The notes beneath the pieces are model-generated. The model was given only the letters and a program-made list of their open reading frames with translations. It made no database searches and had not been told where the DNA came from. 64,000 nucleotides of DNA from Chitinivibrio alkaliphilus ACht1. GTDB taxonomy: Bacteria; Fibrobacterota; Chitinivibrionia; Chitinivibrionales; Chitinivibrionaceae. The stretch lies in assembly GCF_000474745.1 (NCBI RefSeq), contig NZ_ASJR01000014.1, positions 1 to 64,000 of the forward strand, in the 5' to 3' direction. Positions 32,326-42,002 of this stretch are shown in pieces. Numbering within the stretch: the first letter of the stretch is position 1; each line of letters starts with the position of its first letter. Position numbers and translations under genes: made by a program.

Positions 32326-32676
32326 GCGATCGAATAGCTAAGATCCCCGTTTCAATACGTAAAAAAATATAGCGAATCTACCTCGCTCCCCGTCTTTTGA
32401 CTGGGAGCGTCTCACTGTTTCATGTAGCAGAGCCAGAAAGCCCAAGAGATGCATTCCCCTTAGAACACTGGAAAGAGTTGCAAGAAAAAATGATGCCCTC
32501 GTGTTTCCACAAGGCGGCGGCAGAGCGTAAAACTGGAGCCTCGTCGAGCACGAGAAGGGGTCAGAGCGTAAAACTGGAGCCTCGTCGAGCAACGAGCCCT
32601 GAGTGTCTATATTAAGTGAGACAATATTCTATATTAATTTTATTACCTATCGGGGCAGAAAAACAGGAGATCAAAA
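32326..32676. other. accessory scar: no intact gene
   Basis: This stretch between the cotransporter hairpin and the transposase remnant has only short, broken frames. One plus-strand frame (about 32417-32545) reads FHVAEPESPRDAFPLEHWKE with coding-like composition and may be the tail of a lost gene, but I do not recognise it. It runs into the tandem repeat at 32521. Confidence 0.5.
32521..32591 (+). repeat. two copies of a 30-bp direct repeat
   Basis: A 30-base unit beginning CAGAGCGTAAAACTGG occurs at 32521-32550 and 32562-32591, separated by CGAGAAGGGGT. Both copies are identical. The start of the unit (GGGGTCAGAGCG form) reappears at 33733. Repeats with GGGGTCAG ends are common at transposon-related or REP-like sequences. 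Confidence 0.85.
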
Positions 32677-33682: not shown

Positions 33683-33739
33683 TGACCTGCCCTATTACAC
33701 AAAAAATGTCACATGTTCTACCTGAAGGGGGTCAGGTCA
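33683..33739. repeat. imperfect inverted repeat with GGGGTCAGGTCA end
   Basis: TGACCTGCCC (33683-33692) faces GGGGGTCAGGTCA (33727-33739) across 34 bases. The right arm continues into AGAGCG, shared with the 30-bp repeats at 32521 and 32562. This resembles the ends of REP/RAYT-type or MITE-type elements and marks the right border of the scar. Confidence 0.5.
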
Positions 33740-33822: not shown

Positions 33823-34407
33823 TTAGTCAGCAAGGACCAGTTCTTCAAAGGAAACAAGGGCCTTTCGCACCCCTACGGTAACCCCTGTGGTCGCAATGGT
33901 AGCATCTTCACCTGCCGGATCCTCCAGGGTATCAATCCCCTCAATACCCAGACCAACAAATGTCTCCAGAAATTCATCCTGTCTGAAGGTGCGGTCCCGT
34001 TCACGCGCCCGCTGGATATAGATTGTGTTTATGGTGTGGGTGGTATCCATACCAAAGACAAACTCTATGGCGCCAAATTCTCCGCGCTGGGTCACCGCCT
34101 GAGTATATCCGATAACCACACCGTCGCGATTAAGCATTTCGTAGTACTGATACTCCTCACGCTGTCCGGGAAGTATCTCTTCTCCCGTTCGCTCCTCAAT
34201 ACGATCCCGCTTTTCCGCAGAAAGGGGGAGTGCCACGGTGCGATAATCCCGTGCATCGGGAAAGAGGCGGGACATGGTGCGTTCCGGGTTTCGCCAGACG
34301 CAGACATAGACCTGTTCAGCCGTAAGGGGCTTAGCGAACAGTAGAAAAAGAACGATAGAGCTGCAATACCATACTGTGGGTATCTTCGTGATATGTTTCA
34401 TATTCAT
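33823..34407 (-). CDS. exported FMN-binding-domain protein
   Basis: The 194-residue product has a signal peptide (TVWYCSSIVLFLLFAKPLTA) and a domain like the covalent-flavin domains of RnfG/NqrC/NosR. It has GVVIGYTQAVTQRGEFGAIE in the middle and an Asp-x(n)-Thr-Gly-Val-Thr motif (DATIATTGVTVGVRKAL) near the C-terminus. In that family the last Thr is flavinylated by ApbE. Gly-Ala-Thr is more usual than Gly-Val-Thr, so flavin attachment is probable, not certain. A periplasmic electron-carrier role is inferred. It is the last gene of a five-gene operon and its start lies ~77 bases inside the upstream barrel gene; an internal ATG at 34401 is equally possible. Confidence 0.75.
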   Translation of the reverse strand: MNMKHITKIPTVWYCSSIVLFLLFAKPLTAEQVYVCVWRNPERTMSRLFPDARDYRTVALPLSAEKRDRIEERTGEEILPGQREEYQYYEMLNRDGVVIGYTQAVTQRGEFGAIEFVFGMDTTHTINTIYIQRARERDRTFRQDEFLETFVGLGIEGIDTLEDPAGEDATIATTGVTVGVRKALVSFEELVLAD

Positions 34408-35284
34408 ATCCTCCGCGAAAGGTTAAGGTTCGTATGGGCAGGGAAATTCCCGTATAGATGCTTCCCCCCTTTTCATCATGGGGAAGAAAGGCCGCCTGTC
34501 CTGCCGTTTCAATAGTCAGCCGTGGCAAAAGAGCGTACTCTGCATTGGCAAAAACATGCTGCTCCCAGGATGCGTCATATCTCTTGACCACCCCTTCAAA
34601 ACGAACAAGCCCCCGACCATAATAGAGGGTATTGTCAAGTCCTATGGCGGTCTGTTCCTCCTCATGGACATGGCCCATTCCGTGGCCGTGAGCGCTGACG
34701 GCAACCGTCCCGTGGGAGAGGGAGAGTCCCACCACAAGATCTCCCGTGATGAAGGGGGTGATTCCCACACGGGCGGTAAGAAGCCCGGGGCCGGGAAACT
34801 CTTCAATATCCGCCATGCCGTATCCCTGGGTCAGGGCGATGCCGTAGTCTGCCATGCCAATAACCCCATCAAGGAGAATGCCGTTATCCGCCGTATTAAG
34901 GCGACTACCCCGGTAGGGCGACGCATAGGGCATTCGTTCGGGACTCCAATCGGTGAGAAGCCCCCAGGGGAGGGGCACCCTTCCCACCGAGACGTTCCAT
35001 TTTCCCATGGGGCCCTTTATCTGGCCATAGGCTTGATGGAGCATAAACTCAGAGAGATTATTATGGAGCTCCGCCTGGGCAAAGAAAATAAAACGATCAC
35101 CCCGGCTGTCCGAAATCACTTTCCGCAGGGATCCCCCCAGGGCGTTTATTTCCCCGGTGAGATCCTCATCACTTTCCCACCGTCCCCGCAAATCCTCTTC
35201 AAGATCAATAAAGAGGGTCCCAAAGGAGAGGGACACTGCACAGAGGAGGAGGGTGATACTATGAAATAATTTTACCGTCTTCAA
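34331..35284 (-). CDS. outer-membrane beta-barrel (porin-like) with His-rich loop
   Basis: The 317-residue protein has a signal peptide (LFHSITLLLCAVSLSFG) and alternating amphipathic strands ending in an aromatic-rich tail (MVLQLYRSFSTVR). The repeated motif VSVGRVPLPWGLLTDW near residue ~97 is common in phosphate-selective-porin-like barrels. One loop reads HGHGMGHVHEEE (~199-210), five histidines in twelve residues, a likely metal-binding stretch. It lies directly after the ATPase gene with a 26-base overlap and before the FMN-binding gene. A role in letting metal ions or a small redox compound through the outer membrane is inferred from the loop and the operon, not proven. Confidence 0.7.
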   Translation of the reverse strand: MKTVKLFHSITLLLCAVSLSFGTLFIDLEEDLRGRWESDEDLTGEINALGGSLRKVISDSRGDRFIFFAQAELHNNLSEFMLHQAYGQIKGPMGKWNVSVGRVPLPWGLLTDWSPERMPYASPYRGSRLNTADNGILLDGVIGMADYGIALTQGYGMADIEEFPGPGLLTARVGITPFITGDLVVGLSLSHGTVAVSAHGHGMGHVHEEEQTAIGLDNTLYYGRGLVRFEGVVKRYDASWEQHVFANAEYALLPRLTIETAGQAAFLPHDEKGGSIYTGISLPIRTLTFRGGYEYETYHEDTHSMVLQLYRSFSTVR

Positions 35285-35924
35285 GGGATACCACCTTTCC
35301 GCACCGTTTGGCCAGCTCTGTATTATGGGTTACCATAATAACGGCGATACCCCCTGAATTGAGATCTTCAAAGAGCTCTATGACCGCTTCGGCATTTTTT
35401 GTGTCAAGATTTCCCGTCGGTTCATCGGCAAGGATAACCTTCGGATCGTTTACGAGACTTCTGGCCACTGCCACCCGCTGCATTTCTCCACCGGAAAGCT
35501 CCCGGGGAAGATGCTTCATGCGATGCCCAAGGCCAACCCGTCGGAGTATTTCCGCAATTTCCTCTTCCTCTTTTTTATGATGCGAAAAGAGGAGGGGCAG
35601 GGCAACATTCTGCTGTACTGTGAGGGTGGGAATAAGAAAAAACTGCTGGAAGACAAAGCCGATGGTGGAGCGGCGGATCTCTCCGAGGACGGCCTCACTG
35701 CCCGCCTCCACTTCCTGATTTTCCACAAAGACCCGTCCCGCCGTGGGGTGATCCATACAGCCGGCCACATTGAGCAGGGTAGTTTTCCCGGAGCCCGATG
35801 GGCCGCAAATAGCTGTGTATTCACCGGCGGCAATGGAGAGGCTGATTCCATCAAGGGCGTGTACTTCCTCAATTCCCCGTTTGTATATTTTGGTAACCCC
35901 GTCAAGGGTGATAATATTACTCAT
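35259..35924 (-). CDS. ABC transporter ATPase (LolD/MacB type)
   Basis: The 221-residue subunit has Walker A GPSGSGKTT (~41-49), a Q-loop in FVFQQFFLIP, the signature LSGGEMQRVAVARSL, Walker B VILADEPTG and the switch His in MVTHN. The LSGGEMQRVA signature and short length place it with LolD/MacB/FtsE-type ATPases that work as mechanotransmitters rather than importers. Its partner is the permease encoded just upstream (8-base overlap). Confidence 0.95.
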   Translation of the reverse strand: MSNIITLDGVTKIYKRGIEEVHALDGISLSIAAGEYTAICGPSGSGKTTLLNVAGCMDHPTAGRVFVENQEVEAGSEAVLGEIRRSTIGFVFQQFFLIPTLTVQQNVALPLLFSHHKKEEEEIAEILRRVGLGHRMKHLPRELSGGEMQRVAVARSLVNDPKVILADEPTGNLDTKNAEAVIELFEDLNSGGIAVIMVTHNTELAKRCGKVVSLEDGKIIS

Positions 35925-37092
35925 TTCTCAAGACCTCCATGGGAACAATAGACGACGCTTTCAGGGCCGGATAGAGGGCGCATAACAGCCCCGTTGACAC
36001 AGACAGAACAAGGGAGAGCAGGACAATGTCAAGGCCCGGCGATACGATGGATCCGGCGGGAACATAGGCCACCAGAAGGGTGCGCAGAAAGGATCCCGCA
36101 ATGGGAGTTATGACAAGTCCAAGAATGATTCCCGCCAGGGCTCCTGCCAGGCAGATAAGCAGGGTCTCAGCCGTAATAAGCTTCAGAATATCAGATCTGC
36201 GTGCTCCCACACATTTCAGATAGGCTATTTCACGTTTGCGCTCCATTACTGCCATGAGCATGGTGTTGATAATGCCGAAGACAGAAACACCGAAGGCAAC
36301 CCCCACCATGACAAACATGATGGTGCGTGTGGCGGCAAAAAAACCAAGGATACCATCGCTGAGCTCCTTGGCACCAAGGACGTAATATCCTTCAGGGAGT
36401 TGTCCGCGCAGTTCAAGGCTTATCTCCTGCAGGCGGTCGATATCATGCAACTTCAAGGCGATTGCAGAAAGACGTCCTTCACGGTTAATCATTTTCTGAG
36501 CTGTCTCCAGGGGCAGAAAAAAGATACCATCATCCTGGGAGTAACTTCGTTCAAGGATCCCCGTGACGGTGAACACCATGTCAAAGGGTTCTGAATAGAT
36601 TTGATCTCCCACGGAGACATTTTCAATTTGCGCCATGTCTGCCCCAAGAATAACGGATTTTTCATCCTCAAACCATCCACCTTCTTCAAGGGTCCAGTCG
36701 GGACGAAGCCCATGTATGGCGTCGGTGATGCCCATGAAAATATCTGTCCGGGAGCCATCGGGGAGGGTTTCGGCAAAGAGCTTGAAGGGGAGTATGGCCG
36801 ATACTCCCTCGGTCTCTTCCACCATGGGGATAATCTCTTCCTCCACATAGAGGGGGCTTAATCCGCCTTGAGCTATGACAGAGGAGGCCTCAATGGGACA
36901 TCCCTCCTTTGTGAGATAGAGGTGGACCCCCGTATTTTCCACAAGATCCCGCTGGACCGATTCCTGATAGCCCCGGTCAACGGAGAGTACCACCACAAGG
37001 GTGGCCGCCGCCACCATGACGCTGAGCGCCGTCAGAAAGGCGCGCATGGTGCTGCGGCGGATGTTGTTGAGGGCAAGATGAAGAATATTCAT
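35917..37092 (-). CDS. ABC transporter permease (MacB/FtsX family)
   Basis: The 391-residue permease has the MacB topology. TM1 is at ~18-38 (RAFLTALSVMVAAATLVVVL), then a ~220-residue periplasmic domain (MacB_PCD; MVEETEGVSAILPFKLFAET), then three C-terminal TMs at ~255-385 with the FtsX core (FGVSVFGIINTMLMAVMERK, REIAYLKCVGARRSDIL). Such permeases extract lipoproteins or drive periplasmic partners instead of moving small solutes. It overlaps the lipoprotein gene by 4 bases and the ATPase gene by 8. Confidence 0.93.
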   Translation of the reverse strand: MNILHLALNNIRRSTMRAFLTALSVMVAAATLVVVLSVDRGYQESVQRDLVENTGVHLYLTKEGCPIEASSVIAQGGLSPLYVEEEIIPMVEETEGVSAILPFKLFAETLPDGSRTDIFMGITDAIHGLRPDWTLEEGGWFEDEKSVILGADMAQIENVSVGDQIYSEPFDMVFTVTGILERSYSQDDGIFFLPLETAQKMINREGRLSAIALKLHDIDRLQEISLELRGQLPEGYYVLGAKELSDGILGFFAATRTIMFVMVGVAFGVSVFGIINTMLMAVMERKREIAYLKCVGARRSDILKLITAETLLICLAGALAGIILGLVITPIAGSFLRTLLVAYVPAGSIVSPGLDIVLLSLVLSVSTGLLCALYPALKASSIVPMEVLRNE

Positions 37093-37469
37093 GACTGCCC
37101 TCCCCGGAGGAGTTCAAGGCCCGTGGCGGTGAGTACGGTCTGACCAGAACCGGCATGTATCTGTGCGGTCACACGCAGGCGCTGTCCCGGCTGCATGCGG
37201 GGCGCCTTCGTATCACCTTCCATATACACCGTAACAGCCTGTCCGCGTTCGGTATAGGTAAAATCACACCGGGAGGAACACAGGGCCGACATGGTTCCTT
37301 CCAGCACCACGGTCTCACCGTGAAATTCGGCGGGGTTTTCGAGTATTTCCGCCAGGGGAGTAGCTTGTACATCCTCATCGGCGGGAGTTCCCGTTGTTTT
37401 TGAATCGGAGCAGGCCCCAAGAATAACGGCGATACACATCAGAGTAAATACGAGAATTTGGTTTTTCAT
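37089..37469 (-). CDS. OB-fold lipoprotein of the ABC/FMN operon
   Basis: The ATG at 37469 (AAAGGAA upstream) gives 126 residues; the longer frame adds a non-signal-like N-terminus. A lipobox (VILGAC, Cys20) marks it as a lipoprotein. The mature part (PAEFHGETVVLEGTMSALCS, then AVTVYMEGDTKAPRMQPGQR) resembles a small OB-fold such as tRNA_anti-like/BOF periplasmic proteins. A Cys-x-x-x-Cys (CSSRC) could bind metal or form a disulfide. It is the first gene of the tightly packed operon and lies 40 bases downstream of the CAAATG/CATTTG palindrome, the probable operator. Confidence 0.75.
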   Translation of the reverse strand: MKNQILVFTLMCIAVILGACSDSKTTGTPADEDVQATPLAEILENPAEFHGETVVLEGTMSALCSSRCDFTYTERGQAVTVYMEGDTKAPRMQPGQRLRVTAQIHAGSGQTVLTATGLELLRGGQS

Positions 37470-37508
37470 TTTTCGTTCCTTTTTAAAGTTTTTGGGTAGA
37501 TAATACAG

Positions 37509-37526
37509 CAAATGCATTTGCATTTG
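37509..37526. promoter_or_regulatory. palindromic operator candidate upstream of the ABC/FMN operon
   Basis: CAAATG-CATTTG-CATTTG consists of one hexamer, its reverse complement, and a second copy of the latter. It contains the perfect 12-base palindrome CAAATGCATTTG and the overlapping repeat AAATGCA-TT-TGCATTT. The hexamer-array layout recalls Fur-family (Fur/Zur) boxes. It lies 40 bases upstream of the lipoprotein ATG, where a repressor site would be expected. Confidence 0.5.
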
Positions 37527-37550
37527 TGGTGTTACTTTAAAAAAGAGGTA

Positions 37551-37952
37551 TCAACAGAGGAGACGTACGGTTTTGAGCTTTCGCGTGGAGGCGAATTCCT
37601 TTGCACACTTCGCTTCGGAAGAGATGGAGCGAAATAGGGGGGGCATTTTCAAAATAGATACGGGTATGATTCCCGCTTCTGTATGCGTATGAACGGATAT
37701 TTCAAATGTGGGAATAGAAGACACGGTGATGAGTGGCTGTTGGTGTGTCTCATGAAACGCGCAATTTTTGCAGTGCTCTCCATCAGTGCAAGTATCACAA
37801 CAGTTGAGAGGATTCTCCTCGTGATGCGTATCTACACAGGAGAGGTCTTCCATATTGTGCACATGCAGGCAGTGCTCCGGGGAAAGGCCGAAGAGTCCTG
37901 CTGAAAGCAGGAGTACGAAGAGTATTGTTCTGTGCAGTACGACGTGCTTCAT
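37551..37952 (-). CDS. exported Cys/His-rich protein, putative metal binder
   Basis: The 133-residue product has a signal peptide (HRTILFVLLLSAGLFGLS). Residues ~26-70 hold seven cysteines and eight histidines, including EHCLHVHNMEDLSCVDTHH and NCCDTCTDGEHCKNCAFHE. No known zinc-finger spacing fits exactly. Extracytoplasmic metal binding, for example of zinc, copper or arsenite, is inferred. It is on the same strand as the ABC/FMN operon, 81 bases upstream of the lipoprotein ATG, and lies beyond the end of the ars operon. It may be the first member of the ABC operon or separately controlled by the palindrome in between. Confidence 0.6.
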   Translation of the reverse strand: MKHVVLHRTILFVLLLSAGLFGLSPEHCLHVHNMEDLSCVDTHHEENPLNCCDTCTDGEHCKNCAFHETHQQPLITVSSIPTFEISVHTHTEAGIIPVSILKMPPLFRSISSEAKCAKEFASTRKLKTVRLLC

Positions 37953-38122
37953 ATCTATCTCCTTCTATAAAGATATACTTTTGTTTGGGTGAATGCAAAA
38001 AAATAGTATTCCCTAACTCTTTTCTCCGCAGGAGCGAGAGTAGCCGCACAGGTTCTGAAGCTTATAGCCCAAGTCGTTTTGAGAAAAAGGGGAGACCGTA
38101 ATGTTTCGAAAAATAGCGGAGG

Positions 38123-38157
38123 GCATAGCTCTTCAAAAGAGGGTGAAGAGCCTATGC
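38123..38157 (-). terminator. hairpin downstream of the ars operon
   Basis: GCATAGCTCTTC and GAAGAGCCTATGC pair over 12 bp with one bulged C and a 10-base loop. It starts 10 bases past the acr3 stop on the minus strand. There is no clear U tract, so it may protect the 3' end or need Rho. Confidence 0.5.
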
Positions 38158-38167
38158 TTGTGGGCGT

Positions 38168-39232
38168 TTAATGGACGGGGGAGTTCTGTGCTGGAAACCA
38201 CCTTCGGGTCCCATTGGCAATTTTCACCAGGGTCAGCATGAGGGGTACTTCCACCAAAATCCCCACCACCGTGGCAAGGGCGGCACCGGATTGCAGACCA
38301 AAAAGGGATATGGCCACGGCCACGGCAAGTTCAAAGAAATTGCTGGCACCGATAAGCCCCGCCGGGGCGGCGATAGTGTGGGGGAGTTTCCATACCCATG
38401 CCCAGCCATAGGCAACAAAAAATATACAGAAGGTTTGAATAATAAGCGGTACGGCAATAAGCACGATATGCAGGGGATTATTCAAAATAACCTCACCCTG
38501 AAATGAAAAGAGAATAATCAGGGTCAAAAGAAGGCCGATAATGGGAATACGGTCAAATTTTTTCAAAAAAACCTTTTCAAAATAATCTGCACCTTTTTTT
38601 TGTATGACAATCTTGCGTGAGGCATAGCCTGCAGAGAGCGGTACAAGAATAAAAAGCATAACCGACAGAAGGAGTGTGTCATAGGGGACAAGGACGTCAC
38701 TTACCCCGAGAAGAATCATCACAATGGGTGCAAAGGCCACAAGGAGTATCAGATTATTAATAGAGACCTGTACCAGGGTGTAGGCGGGGTTTCCCTTTGT
38801 CAGATGACTCCAGACAAACACCATGGCCGTGCAGGGGGCTGCTCCAAGAAGCACCGCTCCGGCAATATACTCTGTGGCAAGATCATCGGGGATAAGCCCG
38901 CCAAAGATCACACGGAGAAAAAGCCAGGCAAAAAAGAACATTGTGAAGGGTTTGATGAGCCAGTTGGTGGAACAGGTTACAATAAGCCCCCTTGGCATTT
39001 TCAGGGCGTTTACCACGCTGGCAAAGTCAATTTTCAGCATCATAGGGTAAATCATCATCCAGATAAGCACCGCAACGGGAATCGATACCTGCGCATATTC
39101 CCATTGACTGAGTGTCTCCGGTATGAGGGGGAAAAACTGCCCGAGAAATACACCGGCCACAATGCATATGATCACCCAAAGGGTAAGATAGCGTTCAAAA
39201 AATCCAAGGGGACTGTTGTTTTGTGTACTCAT
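38168..39232 (-). CDS. acr3: ACR3-family arsenite efflux permease
   Basis: The 354-residue membrane protein has ten hydrophobic segments of the BART superfamily. Family signatures are GAVLLGAAPCTAMVFVWSHL with the essential Cys, VSINNLILLVAFAPIVMILLG, and IGASNFFELAVAVAISLFGL. It expels arsenite across the inner membrane using the proton gradient. It lies nine bases after the ArsJ gene and is the last gene of arsR-GAPDH-arsJ-acr3. With ArsJ this gives export of both As(III) and arsenylated 3-phosphoglycerate. Confidence 0.95.
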   Translation of the reverse strand: MSTQNNSPLGFFERYLTLWVIICIVAGVFLGQFFPLIPETLSQWEYAQVSIPVAVLIWMMIYPMMLKIDFASVVNALKMPRGLIVTCSTNWLIKPFTMFFFAWLFLRVIFGGLIPDDLATEYIAGAVLLGAAPCTAMVFVWSHLTKGNPAYTLVQVSINNLILLVAFAPIVMILLGVSDVLVPYDTLLLSVMLFILVPLSAGYASRKIVIQKKGADYFEKVFLKKFDRIPIIGLLLTLIILFSFQGEVILNNPLHIVLIAVPLIIQTFCIFFVAYGWAWVWKLPHTIAAPAGLIGASNFFELAVAVAISLFGLQSGAALATVVGILVEVPLMLTLVKIANGTRRWFPAQNSPVH

Positions 39233-39241
39233 TGGTTCTCC

Positions 39242-40471
39242 TTAGGGCATTTTTTGAGAAATATCTGTTTTTGATGAATCAGGAAGAATGCCCGTAATGG
39301 CCGTGGTAATAATCAAAAATACCGTGGATCCTGCCAGGGCAGCACTGACCCCACCCCACTGAAAAAGTATTCCCGATAAGAATGTTCCCGTGAGGCGGCC
39401 CCCCGCATTTGCCATATAGTAAAACCCCACATTTGTTGCGGCGGTATCTCCATGGGCAAAGGCAAGGACAAGGTAGGAATGTACACTTGAGTTTACCGCA
39501 AAGGCTGCGCCGAAGAGAAACAGTCCGGCGATGATGATTATCTCAGGATGTGGTACGGTATGGAAGAGGAGCGTAATTGCCCCCATAACAGCGGTAAGAA
39601 TACAGGAGATTGTCATGGTGGTTGTTTTTCCGGGAGCCCTTTTTGTTTTTCTTCCCAAGAGAGCGGGGGCTCCGGCCTGAACACCTCCATAGATAATTAC
39701 CCAGACTGCCATGAAAGTGCCCACCTGACTATGGGTCCACCCCAAGGTGCGGGAGAAATAGATTGGTATGGCTACGACAAACCATATATCACGGGCGGCA
39801 AAGAGAAATACCCGGGCTGCTGAGAGAATTTTGATGTTTTTCTGCTGTCTAAAGAGTCCCTGAAATGGTTTCGGCTGCGCAGGGGCACCAATTCTGGGGG
39901 GGAGAAACAAAAGAGATCCCCCCAGGGATACAAGGATAAGCAGCGCCAGAATAATCAGGGCGTTGGAGAAGCCGAAATACTGCAGGAGAAATCCCCCCAC
40001 AAAAAAACCGGCCCCTTTTACGGCATTTTTTGACCCCGTAAGAACGGCGACCCACTTAAAAAGCAGGGCATTCTTCTGCTGGGGGATCAGGTATTTTATG
40101 GCGGTTTTGGAACTCATTTTTGTCAAATCCTTTGCAATGCCTGAGAGGGACTGCATGGTCATAACAAAGGGTATTGCAACAGCGGCAGGCCAGTCATGAT
40201 TCAAAAAACTGAGCCCAATGAGAGCAACCGGCTGAATGGACAAGCCCCAGATTAATGGAGCCTTCAGTCCGTATTTTTGCCCAAACCACCCGCCAAAAAG
40301 GTTGGTAAGCATTCCAAAGAATTCATAGAGAAGAAAGAGGAATGCCAGGGTCACCGGAGAATATCCAAGACGGTGAAAATAGAGGAGGATAAGCATTCTG
40401 ATGGCACCATCAGTAAGCATGAAAGACCAGTATGCTCCGGTGACAACGGCGTAGGATTTTATACTGTTCAT
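39242..40471 (-). CDS. arsJ: ArsJ, MFS exporter of 1-arseno-3-phosphoglycerate
   Basis: The ATG at 40471 overlaps the GAPDH stop (ATGA), giving 409 residues; the longer TTG frame is inside GAPDH. About twelve membrane segments fit the MFS. Stretches such as [20 protein letters not shown] near the N-terminus and [15 protein letters not shown] near ~120 match ArsJ. Next to a GAPDH gene in an ars operon the function is well supported: GAPDH makes unstable 1-arseno-3-phosphoglycerate from arsenate and ArsJ exports it, where it falls apart. That route removes As(V) without reducing it. Confidence 0.93.
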
Positions 40472-41466
40472 AGGGCCTGTGCCACTTTCCTGCAAAGGTC
40501 TGACATACGGTGTACATACCCTGTCTCATTATCATACCACGCAAGAATTTTTACCTGGCGCTTGTCAACCACCATGGTGGATTGTGCATCAATAATGGCA
40601 GATCTGGTGTCGTTGGTATAATCCACAGATACAAGGGGGCGTTCTTCATATCCCAGAATACCCGCAAGGGTTGTGGTGGAAGCTTCCTTAAAAAGGGCAT
40701 TTACTTCCTCTGCCGTTGTGTCCCGTTCCACTTCAAAAACACAATCTGTAAGGGATGCGTTGAGGAGGGGAACCCGAACGGCCAGGCCGTTTAATTTTCC
40801 CGTAAGTTCAGGATAAATCATGGTAATGGCCGTGGCAGAACCGGTGGTGGTTGGTATTAAGGAGGAGCCGCATGCCCGTGCCCGGCGAAGATCCTTGTGG
40901 GGGGCATCAACAATGCGCTGTGTGTTTGTAATATTGTGAATTGTGGTGATACTGCCGTGTGCAATGCCGATATTTTCCTGCAGTACCTTCACCACAGGAG
41001 CAAGGCAGTTTGTTGTGCATGATGCGGCGGTGAGAAGTTTTTTGTCGGGCCTATAGAGTGAATCGTTTACACCGTATACGATATTACAGGCTCCTTTTTT
41101 GACGGGGGCTGATACAATAACCGTATCGGCTCCGTTTTTGAAATATGGTACAAGCTCCTCTTCCTTCCGAAAGGCACCGCTGCACTCCACCACGATATCA
41201 ATATCGGGAAGGGGGACAGCGGCGGGAGTTTTTTCCTGTGTATGTAGAATTTCCCTGTTGGCAATACAGAGGGACTTTTCTGTATGTGTTACGGGAACAT
41301 CCCAGGTTCCGTGAATGGAGTCAAAGGTAAGAAGATGTGCAAGGCCGGCCGTATCCCCCATGGGTTCGTTTATTGCGACAATCTCGAAGGATGGGTCTCC
41401 ATGGGCCGCACGAAAAAAGAGGCGTCCCATTCTTCCAAATCCATTAATCAGTACTCGTTTTTTCAT
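40468..41466 (-). CDS. ArsJ-associated glyceraldehyde-3-phosphate dehydrogenase
   Basis: The 332-residue enzyme has the NAD-binding start [18 protein letters not shown], the catalytic [15 protein letters not shown] motif and [21 protein letters not shown]-terminal [15 protein letters not shown] is also canonical. It oxidises glyceraldehyde-3-phosphate with arsenate in place of phosphate. Association with arsJ (4-base overlap) and arsR (22 bases upstream) marks it as the arsenic-specific paralogue, not the glycolytic one. Its sequence is diverged from housekeeping GapA in places (e.g. [20 protein letters not shown]), matching the known ArsJ-linked clade. Confidence 0.95.
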
Positions 41467-41488
41467 AGATATTTCCTTTTTTACAGTG

Positions 41489-41812
41489 TTACGAACAGGC
41501 GACTTTCTTCACCATGGCTCTGTCTTGTCCTATCTGAGGCTCCTTTTCAAGGGTCGAAGCGACCCATATGAGTACGGGATGGGCTTTCATGGGTTCAGGG
41601 ATATGATAGAGCATCCACCGCCCCTTTTTTTCTCCTTGCACAAGACCTGTTTCCATGAGGAGAGCCATGTGATTTGATACGGTTGCTCCGGAAACATTGA
41701 GCATTGCTCGGATATGGTAGGCACAGAGGGGCTCTTCTGTGAGTAAGGCCCCGAGAATCCGCAGGCGGTTTTTATCAGAAAGAGCTTTAAACAGGGTTGC
41801 ACAGGTATCCAT
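41489..41812 (-). CDS. arsR: ArsR-family arsenic-responsive repressor
   Basis: The ATG at 41812 gives 107 residues, the usual ArsR length; upstream frame residues are Phe/Pro-rich and unlike the family. The winged helix includes [28 protein letters not shown] and [18 protein letters not shown]. Cysteines sit at residue 4, in PLCAYHI and near the C-terminus (KKVACS). The classic CVC pair in the DNA-recognition helix is missing, so As(III) probably binds a different Cys set. It is first in the ars operon, and an inverted repeat lies 15 bases upstream of its ATG. Confidence 0.9.
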
Positions 41813-41827
41813 GGTAGTCACACTTTC

Positions 41828-41851
41828 ATAGTTATCTAAATAGCTAACTAT
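41828..41851 (-). promoter_or_regulatory. ArsR operator candidate
   Basis: ATAGTTA and TAACTAT form a perfect 7-bp inverted repeat around a 10-base centre, 15 bases upstream of the arsR ATG. The adjacent minus-strand TATATTATAG (about 41849-41858) would serve as -10, so binding would block transcription of arsR-GAPDH-arsJ-acr3. Size and position suit SmtB/ArsR sites. Confidence 0.7.
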
Positions 41852-42002
41852 AATATAAAAAGGGAAAAAGAGAGGGGGGATGGCTTTTTTATTTTTACAC
41901 AATTCTAATATTTACGAACCTTGGTTGTTCAGTGCATACAAAGAGAGGAGTACTCAGAACGTTCTTTGGACAAGTAGTATGACAAGACAAGGTGATATGA
42001 GA

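Follow-up and report, generated by a model that had tools for sequence, protein, structure and literature searches.

Six adjacent genes in a 64,000-nucleotide stretch of Chitinivibrio alkaliphilus ACht1 DNA (the window analyzed here) encode an outer-membrane porin, helper proteins that lie between the membranes, and an ATP-driven inner-membrane machine. The cassette is conserved as a unit and horizontally spread, occurring in Fibrobacterota, Desulfobacterota, Verrucomicrobiota/Lentisphaerae, and Spirochaetota and on a Massilia plasmid. It is apparently undescribed: as the original prediction had supposed, a search for this gene set returned no characterized locus from a literature in which subscription papers were largely outside coverage. 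Our preferred reading, to which we give a probability of about 40%, is that the cassette is an envelope machine for metal or redox stress, in which a type VII ABC transporter works periplasmic partners and probably moves metal species outward.

All six genes lie on the minus strand, in the following order: a Cys/His-rich exported leader protein (37551..37952; 133 aa), the OB-like lipoprotein LIPO (37089..37469), the permease PERM (35917..37092), the ATPase ATP (35259..35924), the outer-membrane protein BARREL (34331..35284), and an exported RnfG/NqrC-fold protein designated FMN (33823..34407). Successive genes from LIPO onward overlap by 4 nt (LIPO/PERM), 8 nt (PERM/ATP), 26 nt (ATP/BARREL), and 77 nt (BARREL/FMN), in agreement with the earlier description of five genes overlapping head to tail by these lengths; the Cys/His-rich exported protein placed upstream in that description corresponds to the leader, with 9 Cys and 12 His. 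The GC content of the cassette genes is 0.49–0.56, compared with 0.46 for the window. The LIPO reading frame is open to 37523, but its start is probably the MKNQ start at 37469, because AAGGAA stands just upstream of that position. A palindrome between the leader gene and LIPO (CAAATGCAAATGCATTTG, 37509-37526) may serve as an operator or as a processing hairpin. Matches to promoter-like sequences near it were no better than chance, equaling those in shuffled sequences, and so we claim no promoter. Downstream of the cassette, near position 33730, is a sequence of the GGGGTCAG type, and two tandem 41-nt copies (88% alike) occupy 32508-32589, just downstream, in AT-rich DNA without clear genes.

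When genome contigs were scanned with PERM, the matches showed a sharp break, with 15 loci at 52–69% identity followed by 65 at 22–37%. The close loci (from Fibrobacterota, Desulfobacteraceae, Opitutia, Lentisphaerae, Spirochaetota, and CSSED10-310) carry LIPO-PERM-ATP-BARREL-FMN as far as each contig extends, and none of the distant loci has LIPO, BARREL, or FMN. The set is thus more than a chance association, and we rejected the distant MacB-type permeases (L033–L097), which have no partners in common with the cassette, as members of the same system. The five families thus co-occur and are not scattered, and the suggestion that the five genes form one unit is borne out by relatives in several phyla. 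The long BARREL/FMN overlap also recurs across phyla (71 nt in four loci, and 83 and 47 nt in two others), as does the 8-nt PERM/ATP overlap.

The four listed genomes of the same family all lack PERM, and the RnfG-like protein of the window groups with an Opitutia copy (94/95 support) and not with those of its own order, which together argue for horizontal transfer. A search of plasmids with the RnfG-like protein matched Massilia alone: a plasmid of Massilia putida from tungsten-mine soil carries ArsR-BARREL-FMN-LIPO-PERM-ATP-DsbD_N. A second plasmid, the Tn3-bearing pIFL1_1 of Vibrio campbellii (L106, 3673-7061), has a related arrangement, ArsR - small protein - PERM - ATP - TlpA, adjoined by SMR, P-type ATPase, and thioredoxin genes. 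We rejected it as a cassette copy (its permease is 27% identical and its small protein gave no convincing match to LIPO); it may be a further variant in which a thioredoxin takes the place of the RnfG-like protein.

PERM contains MacB_PCD (1.7e-12) and FtsX (2.5e-16) domains and four predicted transmembrane helices, and ATP has Walker A, LSGGE, and Walker B motifs and belongs to the MacB/LolD class. These features place the pair in the type VII (MacB) superfamily of ABC transporters, as expected from the original assignment to a mechanotransmission MacB-type ABC. Transporters of this type act on periplasmic partners without pumping across the inner membrane, as is established for MacB and LolCDE. 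The cassette shares the permease and ATPase classes with MacAB-TolC, but its ATPase is unfused, its scores against the MacB equivalog are 208.7 and 47.2 (cut-off 966), and in place of a MacA-type adaptor and TolC the module has a 16-strand porin; the missing adaptor and channel count against the metal-stress reading. The ATPase is LolD-like and the permease partly matches lolCE, but the scores fall far under the curated cut-offs (231.6 compared with 307.75 for LolD, and 105.2 compared with 362.45 for lolCE), there is a single permease gene, and no Lol-type role is indicated.

The lipoprotein combines an LGAC lipobox with a CxxxC pair; across the family, the lipobox is present in 15/17 members and the CxxxC pair in 16/17. 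A Pfam scan of these 17 members gave no named family above its cut-off, and weak OB-type matches appeared in single members (DUF4920 at 6e-4 in one and stress_OB_fold at 0.0018 in another), so that the predicted OB-fold lipoprotein is supported as OB-like. The other copies with the gene order of the window have a Cys-rich exported gene at the leader position, with a loosely shared C-terminal end.

BARREL, which has a TTG start, belongs to no sequence family that we could recognize, and a PDB sequence search gave nothing. Its AlphaFold2 model (pLDDT 85) has 16 strands and the long loop 3 of general porins, and Foldseek matched it to general porins (OmpT/OmpU, TM 0.71). By modeled fold BARREL is thus a general porin, and it is predicted to act as a channel, in keeping with the outer-membrane barrel and HGHGMGHVH loop described before. 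Judging from strand order, this loop, between strands 9 and 10, should face outside. Its histidines are present in all 13 copies with the gene order of the window and in one further locus that also has a Cys-rich leader (L098), and are almost wholly lacking from the copies that have a YtkA-like gene.

The FMN model (pLDDT 90; alignments for both models left out one plasmid-derived row) had RnfG/NqrC proteins as all 19 of its best Foldseek matches, and a profile of the family matched RnfG in the PDB at 2.7e-4, with a second match at 1.2e-3. Pfam gave no FMN_bind match and no named family above cut-off for 11 members, and the ApbE flavinylation motif D-x-x-[S/T]-G-A-[S/T] (PMC12052999) was present in 0/51 homologues. 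The acceptor column is not conserved, holding T or S throughout only in copies with the gene order of the window, whereas Cys36, Pro41, and Gln132 are present in 50/50 of the rows that cover them. FMN therefore resembles the RnfG/NqrC flavin subunits in fold and remote homology but differs from them in its invariant N-terminal Cys and in the absence of an ApbE motif and of Rnf/Nqr partners, and 'FMN-binding' is a statement about its fold only. Of the periplasmic flavoprotein that had been predicted, the fold is supported and a covalent flavin is not, even though the search for apbE suggested with that prediction did find the gene in the genome.

These observations bear on the least likely of the explanations that we considered, a redox conduit in which the RnfG-fold protein, carrying FMN, would deliver electrons to a target in the periplasm or outer membrane and the ABC transporter would be an assembly or maturation machine. 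The fold, the apbE gene, and genes of the DsbD-N and TlpA types around some copies are consistent with such a conduit, as is the finding that FMN-domain and thioredoxin proteins are interchangeable in iron-linked clusters (PMC8238504). The motif and acceptor-column results argue against it, and neither a membrane electron donor nor a target enzyme was recognized in the flanks tested.

The genes that flank the cassette point to metals at some of its copies, in line with the metal link originally proposed. Immediately upstream in the window, on the same strand, is a complete ars cluster (38168..41902) consisting of arsR (41902-41489), an arsenic GAPDH gene (41466-40468), arsJ (40495-39242), and acr3 (39232-38168), all with NCBIfam matches above cut-off; the GAPDH gene and arsJ overlap by 28 nt. 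This cluster encodes the organoarsenical 1-arseno-3-phosphoglycerate route together with arsenite efflux. At two loci (L018 and L020), the genes directly upstream of LIPO encode an ECF sigma factor, a small membrane protein placed where an anti-sigma factor would be expected (without a Pfam match in L018), and a Metal_resist protein of the CnrX/ZraP type. The Massilia plasmid copy has an ArsR/SmtB regulator, and Rrf2 regulators with three conserved Cys are found at L020, L139, L144, and L183.

Part of this context weighs against a metal-stress machine. Between acr3 and the leader gene is a stable, terminator-like hairpin (38122-38157, z -3.1), which weakens the case for cotranscription, and the ars cluster and the cassette are probably separate transcription units. 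ACR3, ArsJ, and GAPDH gave no match beside the other copies scanned, so that ars structural genes adjoin the window copy only and the cassette lacks the regular association expected of an ars-operon component; metal genes do not adjoin most of the other copies tested. A resistance island is suggested by the neighboring ars genes, which are no evidence for arsenic as the substrate. The flanks are otherwise unrelated between copies, and the cassette is therefore self-contained.

The nearest analogue is ZrgABCDE of Vibrio and its counterpart PA4063-PA4066, which lack a porin and an RnfG-like protein. Like ZrgB and PA4065 (compared by published description), the cassette has a MacB-type permease with a separate ATPase (PMC9820375, PMC11481552); the systems also share metal-linked regulation and dedicated exported partners that include a His-rich one. 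It differs in having the porin, the RnfG-fold protein, and the CxxxC OB-like lipoprotein instead of a ZrgA (PF10986) or ZrgE-type protein: no module protein matched PF10986 in Pfam scans, and sampling for ZrgA in Pseudomonadota gave no match above cut-off. Because Vibrio ZrgABC is assigned to zinc import and is needed for growth under zinc limitation (PMC9820375), the cassette could by analogy serve metal uptake, the porin admitting metal that the ABC transporter and periplasmic proteins take in. The shared ABC class and His-rich exported component speak for such Zrg-like scavenging. We consider it improbable, as the module has no ZrgA or ZrgE homologue, the adjoining regulators are ArsR, ECF/Metal_resist, and Rrf2, and no Zur or Fur was recognized beside the copies examined. 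PA4063-4066 of Pseudomonas aeruginosa is assigned to metal-chelate export (PMC11481552), and this assignment and the resistance-type regulators lead us to favor outward movement; given the import assigned to the Vibrio counterpart, the analogy is not decisive on direction.

Iron clusters of the P19/FTR1 type also contain FtsX-type ABC genes. They further resemble the cassette in combining an exported metal protein with an FMN-domain or thioredoxin protein (PMC8238504), but the module has no P19 (PF10634) or FTR1 (PF03239) domain and does have a porin. We rejected membership of the Zrg, Lol, MacAB, and P19/FTR1 groups, as their diagnostic features were not found.

Because the role of the cassette is read from folds and neighbors, we infer its functions, including the metal substrate and its direction, any use of flavin, and a physical complex. 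The likely metal ligands are the Cys and His residues of the leader, the CxxxC pair of LIPO, the histidines of the porin loop, and Cys36 of the RnfG-like protein. In the export reading, the leader, LIPO, and the RnfG-fold protein would bind a soft metal or metalloid in the periplasm and might also reduce metal or metalloid species. PERM and ATP would not pump the metal across the inner membrane; the pair would instead use ATP as fuel to cycle its periplasmic domain, loading or releasing the partners, and the porin with its His-bearing outer loop would let the metal cross the outer membrane, in all likelihood toward the outside. Such a cassette may represent a new determinant of metal tolerance, and at least one plasmid carries it.

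With RnfG-like alignments as bait, in genome samples that were draws and not complete surveys, matches were found in 19/395 genomes from the phylum of one Desulfobacteraceae copy (two of them already known), 5/379 Pseudomonadota, 9/338 Verrucomicrobiota, and 5/296 Spirochaetota. Four layouts emerged: leader-LIPO-PERM-ATP-BARREL-FMN (A), BARREL-FMN-LIPO-PERM-ATP (B), YtkA-like-BARREL-FMN-PERM-ATP (C), and BARREL-FMN with a gene for a histidine kinase, guanylate cyclase, or HAMP protein after it (D). The porin gene is adjacent in 43 of 50 loci with an RnfG-like gene (five of the seven others are cut by a contig end); an ABC transporter is present in 41 of the 50, a kinase or cyclase in eight, and both in none. 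Layout tracks the tree closely (4 changes, compared with 25.7 in shuffles). A kinase or cyclase can thus replace the ABC transporter directly after the porin and RnfG-like genes, and the porin–RnfG-like pair can stand without the transporter, which counts against a metal-stress machine.

These variants raise the main rival explanation, which could be combined with export: the porin and the RnfG-fold protein, with its invariant Cys and no covalent flavin site, would form a sensing unit that relays a signal from the outer to the inner membrane and docks on an interchangeable effector that extends into the periplasm. That effector would be the kinase or cyclase in some lineages and, in others including this one, the type VII ABC transporter, which would turn the signal into periplasmic work. 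The mutually exclusive distribution of the two effectors is as such a relay would have it, and the inner-membrane proteins of layout D, kinases and cyclase alike, have one N-terminal transmembrane sensor region in common. The kinase-type homologues are remote, however, lie on separate branches, and were recognized by two families standing side by side, and the ABC variants carry additional putative metal-binding proteins that would be superfluous for pure sensing. We regard a general relay of this kind as unlikely; if it exists, it would constitute a new class of envelope-spanning device.

Several protein families that lack a name in Pfam and NCBIfam would gain a function from a widely distributed trans-envelope system built around a type VII ABC transporter and a co-opted RnfG/NqrC fold. 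The natural exchange of ABC transporter for kinase or cyclase makes what MacB-class transporters move or signal testable by domain exchange.

Several loci of the wider family had unusual features. One (L135, 2868-9197) encodes two different FtsX-type permeases, a doubled ATPase in a single chain, and, between them, a polytopic 339-aa protein bearing a CCTSFFD motif. In another (L170, 248-1819), the RnfG-like domain is fused to DUF3179, and ATPase and permease genes adjoin on the opposite strand. A DNA photolyase gene lies just upstream of one BARREL-FMN-kinase set (L180, 10632-12080); the corresponding upstream genes in L179 and L182 are not photolyases. Downstream of a further BARREL-FMN-kinase set (L172, 5205-8690) is a gene whose product resembles multicopper oxidases and contains dockerin and TSP_3 repeats, and the matching position in L174 is occupied by a gene for a fungalysin-type peptidase.
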